Source of the DNA: a virus
Strand: one strand, 5' to 3'
Virus record (IMG/VR): IMGVR_UViG_3300045996_004580
Coordinates: 1 to 38,029 of that record
Length of the DNA: 38,029 bases
Part shown: positions 15,997 through 38,029 of the stretch, in pieces
How the letters are laid out: each line of letters starts with the position of its first letter
Numbering within the stretch: the stretch's first letter is position 1
Made by a program: the position numbers and the translations under genes
Notes under the pieces: generated by a model
What the model saw: the letters and a program-made list of their open reading frames with translations, nothing else
Told to the model about the DNA's origin: nothing
Database searches by the model: none

Positions 15997-16728
15997 ATGT
16001 TGAGTATTTATAAAATATCCAGCGAAGAAAATAACTTGATTCAAAATGCGGAAGAAACTTATAAAGCACATTTTAAACACGCCCTCGAAAGCGTGAAGTT
16101 TGCTTGGGAATTTATACGTGAAATTAATCCTGAAGTATGGGTTTTTCAATCGTTTTTCTCAGCAGGGTGTAACTCAATATATTTAGCGTTTATATCAGTT
16201 TTAAGACAACATACTATACAAGCTGAAATGAATATACGTCAGGCTTTAGAGGCTTTCGTGTTGGCTTGTTATGCTCTTGAGTTTACAAACGAAAATAATT
16301 ATGTTTACAAAGATGAAAATGGCTTTGTAAGGGAAAAGTCAAAAGTAAAAGGCAAAGCATATAAATGGCTTGAGAACAAATATCCATATCATAATAAGAA
16401 AGTAAGATATTTTAAAGACAGAGTAAATGAATTGTTCGCTCATCCTAGTTTGATTACAACTTTTTATAATTCATCAATGGAAGATGAATATTTTCGAACA
16501 TCATATTTCGATAACGATACTGAAATCATGATTAAACTTCGGTTATGGATGATAGCAAACATATCTCTTGGTACAGTGGATTTAATTGAACTTGTATTAA
16601 AGGATTATCCTAAAGCTAAGTATTGTTTTGGATATAATGAAAAAAAAGAAGCGTTATGGAATAGCGATAATAAAATTAAAGAGATAATTAAGAAAGATCC
16701 TGAGTTTCCAAGTGTACAAATCGGATGA
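15997..16728 (+). CDS. hypothetical helical protein (243 aa)
   Basis: The product is almost fully helical with a conserved-looking core RQALEAFVLACYALEFT (about residues 83-99), typical of small uncharacterised proteins with a HEPN- or DUF5677-like helical bundle. The motif RVNELFAHPS (about 147-156) also recalls HEPN-type signatures, but the RX4-6H pattern is not exact. It ends before a gene-free region that holds the reverse-strand peptide locus. It may be an accessory (moron) gene with defence-related function, but this is inference. Confidence 0.5.
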   Translation: MLSIYKISSEENNLIQNAEETYKAHFKHALESVKFAWEFIREINPEVWVFQSFFSAGCNSIYLAFISVLRQHTIQAEMNIRQALEAFVLACYALEFTNENNYVYKDENGFVREKSKVKGKAYKWLENKYPYHNKKVRYFKDRVNELFAHPSLITTFYNSSMEDEYFRTSYFDNDTEIMIKLRLWMIANISLGTVDLIELVLKDYPKAKYCFGYNEKKEALWNSDNKIKEIIKKDPEFPSVQIG

Positions 16729-16822: not shown

Positions 16823-16878
16823 AAAAAAAGAAAAAAATAGAGGCCATATGTATATTCTTGATGGCTGTGCCTCTATTT
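16823..16878 (-). terminator. bidirectional terminator of the reverse-strand peptide mRNA
   Basis: AAATAGAGGC (16835-16844) and GCCTCTATTT (16869-16878) form a perfect 10-bp stem. On the reverse strand it is followed by a long T-run (16823-16837, interrupted by one C). It would end the reverse mRNA at about 16823 and can also stop + strand transcripts from 16728. Confidence 0.7.
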
Positions 16879-16879
16879 T

Positions 16880-17121
16880 GATAAGGTATAATTCCGTTGT
16901 ACGTTGGGTATAATATCTGTTAATTTTTTTTGGCTTGCAGTCATATTACCAAAATTTTCGTAGTATTAATGGTAACAGACTAAGCCAATTGAGCAGCACT
17001 AACTCAACAGAATTTTTGCCAAGACAATAATAAGGACGAGGACAAGGATAAATGGCATATATTTTCCTCCTTTCTGATGAGAATTCTTTTCCACGGCAAT
17101 GGAAAAAGAATTCTTTTTTTT
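16880..17121 (+). ncRNA. possible antisense RNA with its own terminator
   Basis: Two TATAAT boxes (16887-16892, 16909-16914) face the + direction, though their -35 boxes are poor. A strong + strand terminator lies at 17081-17121: GAATTCTTTTCCA pairs with TGGAAAAAGAATTC (one bulged A), then T8. An RNA of about 200 bases from here would cover the whole reverse-strand peptide ORF and its SD, as expected for a type I antitoxin. Confidence 0.45.
16999..17058 (-). CDS. 19-residue hydrophobic peptide, candidate type I toxin
   Basis: Reading the reverse strand, ATG 17058 has the extended SD AGAAAGGAGG (17066-17075) at a 7-base spacing. The product is MPFILVLVLIIVLAKILLS, a single membrane-spanning segment with one lysine near the end. 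Its mRNA could start from an extended -10 promoter TGGTATAAT (17203-17211 reverse) and end at the terminator at 16823. Very short hydrophobic ORFs with extended SDs, long leaders and overlapping antisense RNAs are the hallmark of type I toxins such as BsrG/TxpA in Bacillus prophages. It has no recognised sequence family. Confidence 0.6.
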   Translation of the reverse strand: MPFILVLVLIIVLAKILLS

Positions 17122-17122
17122 G

Positions 17123-17174
17123 ATCAGCATTAATGATTTCAGAATCTTGCTCGACTATAATCTTTTATGCTGAT
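17123..17174 (-). repeat. 8-bp inverted repeat in leader of the peptide mRNA
   Basis: ATCAGCAT (17123-17130) and ATGCTGAT (17167-17174) are perfect complements and would fold the 5' leader. TCGACTATAAT (17151-17161) between them resembles the operator half-sites at 5073/5104 (9 of 11), but could be chance. Confidence 0.35.
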
Positions 17175-17202
17175 GTTTATAGTTATACTCTTTTCTTGTG
17201 GG

Positions 17203-17211
17203 ATTATACCA
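17203..17211 (-). promoter_or_regulatory. extended -10 promoter for the reverse-strand peptide
   Basis: Reverse-strand TGGTATAAT gives a perfect -10 with the extended TG; the -35 (ctccta) is weak. The start would be near 17196, giving a leader of about 138 bases before the peptide ORF. Confidence 0.45.
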
Positions 17212-17296
17212 AACGCGAAATATTTTAGGAGTTTTTTTGAAAATACTAATTGTTTCATAGGGTGAAACTAATGTAATATGTAAGGCGGTGAAATGT

Positions 17297-21686: not shown

Positions 21687-22560
21687 TAAATCTATCTTGG
21701 ATATTCGTTTGCTTCTTGATAAACAGGCGAATAAAGATATCATGCCAATCCTTCAAGCCTATAAACGTTCATTGGATGATGTTCGAACGGAAATAGCAAA
21801 AATATATACCAAATATGCGGTTAACGGTAAATTAAGCGTTTCTCAAACACAAAGATATACTATATTGAAGCAGCTTGAACAATTACTAAAAGAGCAAGGA
21901 CAACAAATTGGGATGATTGACGTTGACCATACAACCAAGATATTGTCAAATATTTTTTCGGAATCCTATTATCAAACGGCCTATACCATTGATAAAGGTA
22001 TAGAATCAATTCTTACTTTTACAATTTTAAAGCCTGAAATGGTTGCAGCAGCAGTAAACACGCCAATTGAAGGCAAAATGTATTCAGACCGTATATGGAA
22101 GAACAAAACATTGCTTATTAATCGTGTTCGTCGTGCGGTCGAGCAAGGTATGATTCAAGGAATGTCGATTGATAAACTATCAAGAGCCGTAAAGAAGGAA
22201 TTTGACGTTTCTGCTTTTGAGTCAAAACGGTTGATACTTACCGAATTGGCAAGGGTGCAATCTCAAGCATCGGACTCAATCTATAAACAGTCATCGGTGA
22301 TTAATAAAGTCATGTACGACGCAACGTTGGACGTTAAAACTTCAAGCATATGCAGGAGTTTGGATGGGAAGATATTTGACGCTGATGCTGATTATCCCAA
22401 GCCTCCACAGCACCCATCGTGCCGTTCGTCTATCGTCCCTGTGATCGAAGGATGGTCGCCAACAAGGAAAAAGGAAAATGTAAAGAACGATAACGGAGTA
22501 AAACAAGTTATTGATTATGCAACTTATCAAAAATGGAGAGAGTCAAAAGGAATTTCTTAA
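21673..22560 (+). CDS. minor head protein, SPP1 gp7-like (295 aa)
   Basis: ATG 21673 overlaps the end of the portal gene by 14 bases; the in-frame start at 21649 would be far inside it. The C-terminal half has the family signature: ARVQSQASDS, then TSSICRSLDGKIF and PPQHPSCRSSIVP (Cys and His motif, about residues 247-259). Such proteins are injected or help head assembly. The stop TAA overlaps the stop of the convergent reverse gene. Confidence 0.88.
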   Translation: MEQLNKSILDIRLLLDKQANKDIMPILQAYKRSLDDVRTEIAKIYTKYAVNGKLSVSQTQRYTILKQLEQLLKEQGQQIGMIDVDHTTKILSNIFSESYYQTAYTIDKGIESILTFTILKPEMVAAAVNTPIEGKMYSDRIWKNKTLLINRVRRAVEQGMIQGMSIDKLSRAVKKEFDVSAFESKRLILTELARVQSQASDSIYKQSSVINKVMYDATLDVKTSSICRSLDGKIFDADADYPKPPQHPSCRSSIVPVIEGWSPTRKKENVKNDNGVKQVIDYATYQKWRESKGIS

Positions 22561-23351
22561 TTTGTTTTACTAAATTCTAAAAATCGATCTTTATCTTTAT
22601 CGTATAGAAAGAGGGTGGTTGATTCATCTTCAGTTTTTGCATTTCCAAGTACCATCATATTGTGATCAATCGAATAAAGGAAGAAAAATGAATGTTTCTT
22701 TATTTTATCCTGATCAGGTATAGTCATGGTATATTTAGCTGGTAGCTGTGAGTATCTTTCTTTTCTTTTGAAAGAGAAACAAAAAATATAAAAGTAACAC
22801 ATAAGTATAGGGAAAATTATAAGCCAAAGAATCCGAGAAAAATAGATAACATTAATTGTTTGAGTCGTGGTAAGTGAATGTATAAAGGAAGAAATTTGGT
22901 ATATATAATTTATCATACCAGTAATGAAATTGACGTAAAATATTATTTCATAATATCGCGAAATTTTTTGTGATTGTTCTAATGTGGATTTTCGCTTTCT
23001 GAATATCCAATAACGGATTCTAGTATAATAAGAATTTATTAATAATAGTATAAATGACAGGTAAAACAACAGTGTATCGATTTGATCGGTAATAATGAAA
23101 AAAAAGTTCGGTTTAAGATACAATTTCGATACAAAATAACTCGGGTACACTAGTGCAACGAATAAGAAAATACTTCCAACAACTATGTTAACAATGCTGT
23201 GCCATTTATTTTGATCTTTTGTAATGAAAATTCGTTCAAATTCTGACTTAGAAGAAGTTTTCAAAAATTCTTTAATGATTATTATTATGATCCCAACAAG
23301 TACAAATGGTATTAAATACTGCTTATCAACAAATTTACTTAAATCAAGCAT
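22557..23351 (-). CDS. multi-pass membrane protein on the reverse strand (264 aa)
   Basis: ATG 23351 is chosen; AAGGTGG precedes it on the reverse strand. Hydrophobicity suggests four or more transmembrane segments (about residues 14-27, 55-70, 84-106, 135-155 and 170-190) with a soluble C-terminal domain of beta character (HSFFFLYSIDHNMMVLGNAK). No family was recognised. It has a promoter at 23379-23407 and lies in the head operon, between the minor head and scaffold genes. This is the pattern of a moron, e.g. a superinfection-exclusion or lysogenic-conversion protein. Confidence 0.65.
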   Translation of the reverse strand: MLDLSKFVDKQYLIPFVLVGIIIIIIKEFLKTSSKSEFERIFITKDQNKWHSIVNIVVGSIFLFVALVYPSYFVSKLYLKPNFFFIITDQIDTLLFYLSFILLLINSYYTRIRYWIFRKRKSTLEQSQKISRYYEIIFYVNFITGMINYIYQISSFIHSLTTTQTINVIYFSRILWLIIFPILMCYFYIFCFSFKRKERYSQLPAKYTMTIPDQDKIKKHSFFFLYSIDHNMMVLGNAKTEDESTTLFLYDKDKDRFLEFSKTN

Positions 23352-23378
23352 CAATACCCCACCTTTTATTTTTATTTC

Positions 23379-37210: not shown

Positions 37211-38029
37211 TTGAATAATCGAAAATTTCTAGTTTGTTTAATGTTTATATTGATATTAATTAATTCTGGTTGTGTTTCATCAAGTCAATATACTAGCATG
37301 ACCAATTCACTATCTACATCAAATAATAAAGTCACACAATTAGAAAATGAATTAAATGAGACAACAAGAAAACTAACTGATTCAACCGAAAAAAATCAAG
37401 AATTACAGAATGAATTGAACGATTTAAAAAATGGTGCTCAAATGTCCATCATCAATATTAGAAAAGAATACAATGTGGAAAATTATGATGAAGTTTTGGA
37501 CTTGTCTAATAAACTAAATGAGAAGTTTCCTGGAACACCGGAAGACATTGAAGCACAATCATATGTAACGGAAATTAACAATACTAGAGATGAAGAGGCT
37601 AGGGTAGCTAAGGAAGAAGAGGAAAAACGGATAGCAGAAGAAAATAAATCAGCACAAGATAAAGCACGTTCGATTTTAAGAATATCAAATAGTTACCCAA
37701 GTAAACCGAATTCTGCTAGTGGTGTTGATTTACATATCATATGGAGAAATAATTCGGATAAGGTAATAAAATATGTTGATTTTGCGGTTGAACCATATAA
37801 TGCCGTTAATGATGTAGTTAGAAGTGAGATCGGGAATAAATCACTTTTTGAAGGCAGAGCAACAGGACCATTCAAAAAAGGCGAAGGTAACAATGGGAAT
37901 AAGTATTGGGAAAATGCCTGGTATAACTACTCTATAAAAACAGTACAGTTTTACAGTGTAAATATTGAATACATGGATGGAACAAAAGTAACATTAAAGG
38001 GCGATGATTTAAAGTACATCCAATATTAG
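37211..38029 (+). CDS. lipoprotein-like exported protein (272 aa)
   Basis: TTG 37211 is preferred because the SD aaggtga (37198-37204) precedes it and the signal peptide then starts NNRKFLVCLMFILILINSGC; GTG 37160 has no SD. The Cys at residue 20 could be a lipid-attachment site, but the -3 residue (Asn) is unusual for a lipobox. A coiled coil (about 30-70, 130-165) and a C-terminal beta domain (VDLHIIWRNNSDKVIKYVDF) follow. It probably sits outside the cell membrane and may modify the host surface. The ORF ends exactly at the window end. Confidence 0.65.
   Translation: MNNRKFLVCLMFILILINSGCVSSSQYTSMTNSLSTSNNKVTQLENELNETTRKLTDSTEKNQELQNELNDLKNGAQMSIINIRKEYNVENYDEVLDLSNKLNEKFPGTPEDIEAQSYVTEINNTRDEEARVAKEEEEKRIAEENKSAQDKARSILRISNSYPSKPNSASGVDLHIIWRNNSDKVIKYVDFAVEPYNAVNDVVRSEIGNKSLFEGRATGPFKKGEGNNGNKYWENAWYNYSIKTVQFYSVNIEYMDGTKVTLKGDDLKYIQY

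Follow-up and report, generated by a model that had tools for sequence, protein, structure and literature searches.

A putative prophage locus with the layout of a type I toxin-antitoxin pair and a 19-residue hydrophobic peptide

Introduction

Can a few hundred nucleotides between phage genes, read against the direction of their neighbours, encode both a toxic peptide and the antisense RNA that would silence it? An earlier note on this DNA had proposed such a type I toxin-antitoxin locus, with TxpA/RatA and BsrG/SR4 as its models. We examined the locus at 16823-17215 within its window, that is, the whole stretch of 38,029 nucleotides that was analysed, and searched for relatives in phages, plasmids, viral contigs and genomes.

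The window carries phage genes for a small terminase, a phage integrase-family protein, an SPP1-type portal and a Gp13-like capsid protein. In the ORF listing of the 38,029-base record, the first ORF runs from base 1 and the last one to base 38029; such ends would be expected of a provirus excised at gene boundaries, which this record may be. Since the relatives of the terminase come mainly from Clostridium, Tissierella, Bacillus and their kin, the host is probably a Gram-positive member of the Bacillota. The locus is antiparallel to its flanking genes, and the upstream plus-strand gene occupies 15997-16728. Elsewhere in the window, a 265-aa probable membrane protein (22557-23354, minus strand) is likewise antiparallel to its neighbours and may be a moron; its Pfam and PHROG matches are weak and all below the cut-off.

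Results

The peptide ORF and its predicted transcription unit

The minus strand of the locus holds the following features.

17203-17211, minus strand: extended -10 TGGTATAAT of the predicted toxin mRNA, inside CGTTTGGTATAAT (17215-17203)
16823-17196, minus strand: predicted toxin mRNA of about 374 nt, its ends placed from the -10 and the terminator
17123-17174, minus strand: first leader hairpin, an inverted repeat with 16-nt arms that are 88% complementary
17066-17075, minus strand: 10-nt Shine-Dalgarno sequence (SD) AGAAAGGAGG, 7 nt from the ATG at 17058
16999-17058, minus strand: 19-codon ORF encoding the peptide MPFILVLVLIIVLAKILLS, from the ATG at 17058 to a TAG stop ending at 16999
16930-16988, minus strand: hairpin 3' of the ORF (TTGGCTT.../...AAGCCAA), fold z about -2.1, followed by A8
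16823-16878, minus strand: intrinsic terminator of the predicted toxin mRNA, stem 16878-16835, about -12.6 kcal/mol, T tract to about 16823

The elements named in the earlier note (the ATG at 17058, the SD, the extended -10, the leader hairpin and the terminators of both strands) were all read directly from the DNA at their positions. The SD 10-mer AGAAAGGAGG, which is complementary to the 3' end of the Bacillota 16S rRNA, occurs only once in the window, with both strands counted. The peptide MPFILVLVLIIVLAKILLS is small and hydrophobic with a potential transmembrane segment, as type I toxins are, and its GRAVY of 2.82 is the highest among the 334 ATG ORFs of 15-30 aa in the window, where no other exceeds 2.5. 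Its one positive charge, K15, lies near the C-terminus. In a third-order Markov null, which was devised, like the facing-box test described below, after the locus had been seen, a comparable hydrophobic ORF behind AAAGGAGG arose in 0 of 300 windows, while the SDs AGGAGG and GGAGG gave one and four finds, respectively, in the same number of windows.

The motif TGnTATAAT is found twice in the whole window, one of the two being TGGTATAAT; the promoter score for 17211 is moderate, and a good -35 is absent. The predicted 374-nt transcript folds with a z of -5.1, and none of 100 shuffles folded as well. Its leader contains a second hairpin (17114-17080) with perfect 11-nt arms, which is formed by the complement of the plus-strand terminator. 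The hairpin at 16930-16988 is not regarded as a terminator, because A8 comes after its stem. Simple sigma-70 and terminator scans did not call the sites of the locus, which have long stem loops and no -35.

The unique SD, the top GRAVY, the rarity of TGnTATAAT, the Markov null and the transcript fold together indicate that the 19-codon ORF is probably a real gene. A leader-peptide reading was dropped, the minus strand having no closely following gene. We also considered sequestration of the SD by pairing with the CTT-GTC-CTC-GTC-CTT codons of the ORF. The cost of opening this pairing exceeds that of 96% of synonymous recodings in the local segment and of 85% on the full RNA, and the mean unpaired probability of the SD is ordinary compared with the recodings; the effect is weak only, being equalled by 4% of recodings locally and by 15% on the full RNA, and the idea was rejected. 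The peptide ORF can be extended in frame to 43 aa, from an ATG at 17130. After the peptide ORF, the same predicted transcript holds a 23-codon ORF, MTASQKKLTDIIPNVQRNYTLSK (16873-16944, minus strand), with no evident strong SD.

The facing box and the predicted antisense RNA

What could produce an antisense RNA? The earlier note had named no antisense promoter; a candidate was found here, within the following arrangement.

16902-16914, plus strand: candidate antisense -10 box CGTTGGGTATAAT, identical at 12 of 13 positions to CGTTTGGTATAAT (17215-17203, minus strand), which it faces
16921-17121, plus strand: predicted antisense (antitoxin) RNA of about 201 nt, deduced from the box and the terminator, fold z about -2.1
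17079-17121, plus strand: strong intrinsic terminator, stem 17079-17115, about -14 kcal/mol, T8 to 17121

These two boxes are the only near-exact copies in the window, all other matches having at least two mismatches. In the facing-box test, again one made with the locus in hand, a distant inverted match of such quality holding TATAAT appeared in at most 0.3% of simulated loci. The box at 16902-16914 has neither a -35 nor a TGn, and promoter scoring was not in its favour. On the same strand, the segment 16885-16914 contains two TATAAT boxes, at 16887 and 16909, 22 bp apart.

The predicted RNA would start about 7 nt past the box and lie wholly within the toxin mRNA, spanning the ORF and the SD (16999-17075). 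Because the plus-strand terminator lies upstream of the SD, the overlap in this predicted geometry would include both the SD and the ORF. Scoring of the plus strand turned up several terminator-like hairpins.

Search for relatives

Does the locus have relatives? With blastn, it gave only weak matches in phages (E about 0.6) and none in plasmids; the weak phage matches listed were of about 44 nt, in T4-like phages and mostly in clamp-loader genes. A strict pattern of the SD plus 19 codons, which does recover the locus in the window, found nothing in the genome contigs, and pattern scans of the viral contigs returned only ORFs that look unrelated once translated. Pattern searches of genomes of the phylum gave three matches in 398 genomes, all translating to ORFs of at least 44 aa, and two matches in 299 genomes. 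For the relatives of the terminase, DNA from around the terminase was read, in many cases with the small-terminase gene itself included; it showed no short hydrophobic ORF that resembles the present one and follows a strong SD. The patterns used yielded no relative, whether among phages and plasmids or among viral contigs and genomes, although near-identical records may have escaped these searches.

The earlier note could name no family for the peptide, and the profile searches agree. The 19-aa form, taken with two upstream residues, matched no Pfam or NCBIfam family at E up to 10, including those of the TxpA/BsrG type, and the 43-aa extension also gave no match in the family search. No PHROG matched the peptide and no Rfam family matched the locus. 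Run over the window with E values of up to 10 allowed, the Ibs profile PF13956 found nothing; its E. coli control scored above the cut-off. The failure to find a homologue, and with it any sign of selection on the peptide, counts against the toxin-antitoxin reading. Terminators on the opposite strand of the leader showed no enrichment, occurring at 5 of 28 short hydrophobic ORFs versus 8 of 48 long ones.

Discussion

Comparison with known type I systems

IbsC of E. coli has 19 aa, and versions as short as 15 aa that keep 10 or more hydrophobic residues are still toxic (PMC8309996); the Sib antisense RNA covers the ibs ORF and its ribosome-binding site (PMC4147584). The present locus resembles Ibs/Sib in its almost wholly hydrophobic 19-aa peptide (PMC8309996) and, by its predicted geometry, in an antisense RNA that would span the complete ORF together with the ribosome-binding site (PMC4147584). 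Unlike Ibs/Sib, it lies as a single copy in a Bacillota-type phage, has K15 near the C-terminus of its peptide, and matches neither PF13956 nor Rfam.

With TxpA/RatA of the B. subtilis skin element and BsrG/SR4 of SPbeta, the locus shares a prophage-like location, a hydrophobic peptide and, as predicted here, opposed transcripts. The near-perfect SD at the peptide ORF is a further likeness to txpA; near-perfect SDs, complementary to the anti-SD over more than 11 bp, are reported for both txpA and yonT (PMC6562991). The toxins TxpA (59 aa) and BsrG, in contrast, are longer and have charged C-termini, and no family match links them to this peptide. BsrG has about 38 aa. The choice of these two pairs as models therefore holds for the hydrophobic peptide and the opposed transcripts and fails for the layout: their RNAs overlap at the 3' ends, by about 75 and 120 nt (PMC4147584), whereas the topology predicted here has more in common with Ibs/Sib than with these B. 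subtilis pairs. Only 3'-overlapping Gram-positive pairs were described in a 2014 review (PMC4147584).

Type I pairs are common in Gram-positive prophages (PMC6563280). Those of C. difficile prophages (CD0956.2/RCd10, CD0904.1 and their kin) are like the present locus in their prophage setting, convergent genes and small membrane peptide; they differ in their toxins, which have 34-59 aa and a C-terminus rich in lysine (PMC6563280), and no Pfam or NCBIfam link connects them to it. The earlier description of the peptide as shorter than typical is correct for B. subtilis, whose toxins have 28-60 aa, and for C. difficile, where they have 34-59 aa (PMC6563280); it is too narrow when IbsC, also of 19 aa, is included (PMC8309996).

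Weighing the readings

We assign a probability of about one half to the reading of 16823-17215 as an orphan, self-contained prophage unit that acts like a type I toxin-antitoxin pair. It is the best single reading, and all the elements that the earlier note named are present. It is favoured by the unique 10-nt SD, the small ORF of highest GRAVY and the Markov result; by the unit's own promoter-like box and terminator, its antiparallel orientation to the flanking genes and the fold of its transcript; by the facing near-identical -10 boxes and the plus-strand terminator just upstream of the SD; and by the parallels in the literature, namely the SDs of txpA and yonT, IbsC, Sib and the Gram-positive prophage pairs. 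It is weakened by the antisense promoter lacking a -35 and TGn, by a plus-strand terminator that possibly belongs to the upstream operon, by SD/ORF pairing that lies only weakly above the synonymous null, and by K15 as the sole positive charge.

How else could these elements be explained? No plus-strand terminator was scored between the end of the upstream gene at 16728 and 17079; therefore, the terminator at 17079-17121 may simply close the upstream operon, and by itself it is weak evidence for an antitoxin, the point at which the earlier claim has to be softened. The peptide could then be a lysogeny-expressed moron: a small membrane peptide with another task, such as superinfection exclusion or modulation of the membrane or of lysis, equipped with its own promoter and terminator and without a dedicated antitoxin. 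The unit's own promoter-like box and its terminator, both running against the flanking genes, suit this reading, as do the several plus-strand terminator-like hairpins, the weak antisense promoter, and further short hydrophobic ORFs of viral contigs that have strong SDs and mostly no opposite-strand leader terminator. However, it leaves unexplained both the facing near-identical -10 boxes and the exact site of the plus-strand terminator in the leader, just before the SD, and we consider it somewhat unlikely.

The same terminator-free interval would let the transcript of the upstream operon (gene 15997-16728) run across the ORF and the SD, so that read-through silences the peptide with no dedicated small RNA and the peptide is made only while the operon is silent. 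The near-copy of the toxin promoter box that faces it at 16902 argues against this account, to which we give little credence; jointly with the moron, it still falls only a little short of an even chance. Alternatively, the ORF may be incidental and the locus no more than degenerate intergenic DNA or a non-coding RNA with structure, as the lack of homologues and the fold z of -5.1 would allow, but a unique, correctly spaced 10-nt SD before the most hydrophobic small ORF and the 0/300 of the Markov null make this improbable.

Proposed mechanism

From the elements of the toxin-antitoxin reading and their rarity, we infer the following course of transcription, toxicity, repression and prophage retention. 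Transcription from TGGTATAAT at 17211 would yield a structured minus-strand mRNA of about 374 nt, in which the only strong ORF is that of the 19-residue hydrophobic peptide. The peptide may insert into the host membrane as one helix, in the manner of IbsC, and would cause depolarisation if overproduced. A plus-strand RNA ending at 17121, initiated at the facing box (16902-16914) or supplied by read-through of the upstream phage operon, would pair with the SD and the ORF and, by analogy with Sib, block translation. The RNA duplex would then be exposed to RNase III and may be cleaved. Prophage retention, the usual role of such pairs, would presumably be that of this unit.

Tentatively, and with less confidence than the toxin-antitoxin reading itself, the locus could represent a new, sequence-orphan type I family, borne by a Bacillota phage, that combines a 19-aa toxin with a Sib-like antisense RNA over the ORF and SD and with facing near-identical promoters. 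If so, its toxin would be one of the shortest of type I, and the Ibs/Sib-like geometry would be brought to Gram-positive prophages, in contrast to the reviewed Gram-positive toxins of 28-60 aa with 3'-overlapping antitoxins. Moreover, such pairs could then be without recognisable relatives and be missed by homology searches, and a search keyed to the layout, with its unique SD, leader terminator and facing promoters, may do better.

Other short hydrophobic ORFs in viral contigs

Among the finds of the pattern scans was also a conserved hydrophobic peptide of 31 aa, MNILIFLDFRFNLSLTIVLGLFIVLTKYLNK, which lies behind the same 10-nt SD AGAAAGGAGG in five viral contigs, with one residue differing in L241. 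Its copies are as follows.

L208, 4278, plus strand: MNILIFLDFRFNLSLTIVLGLFIVLTKYLNK
L222, 8589, plus strand: MNILIFLDFRFNLSLTIVLGLFIVLTKYLNK
L231, 2120, minus strand: MNILIFLDFRFNLSLTIVLGLFIVLTKYLNK
L241, 2089, minus strand: MNILIFLDFRFNLSLTIVLGLFIVLTKYLNK with the one differing residue
L248, 4910, plus strand: MNILIFLDFRFNLSLTIVLGLFIVLTKYLNK

Just upstream of the peptide, all five aligned copies carry AAAAAACTGCC...GGCAGTTT, which reads on the opposite strand as a stem with a run of T after it and is a possible opposite-strand terminator. Pfam gave no match to the peptide, and NCBIfam none above the cut-off. It is not a relative; the layout resembles that of the present locus, and we regard it as a candidate type I pair.

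Short hydrophobic ORFs also follow AGAAAGGAGG in L228 (about 9809, minus strand) and L026 (5012, plus strand), with the similar C-termini RLKIDIEI and RLKIEIDL. Just upstream of the ORF at about 9809, L228 has a second SD with a short hydrophobic ORF, which suggests a tandem pair. Finally, a hydrophobic ORF of 17 aa, with NRD as its last residues, lies behind GGAGGCAAA in three viral contigs (L025, 2423, minus strand; L029, 3962, minus strand; L030, 5176, plus strand).
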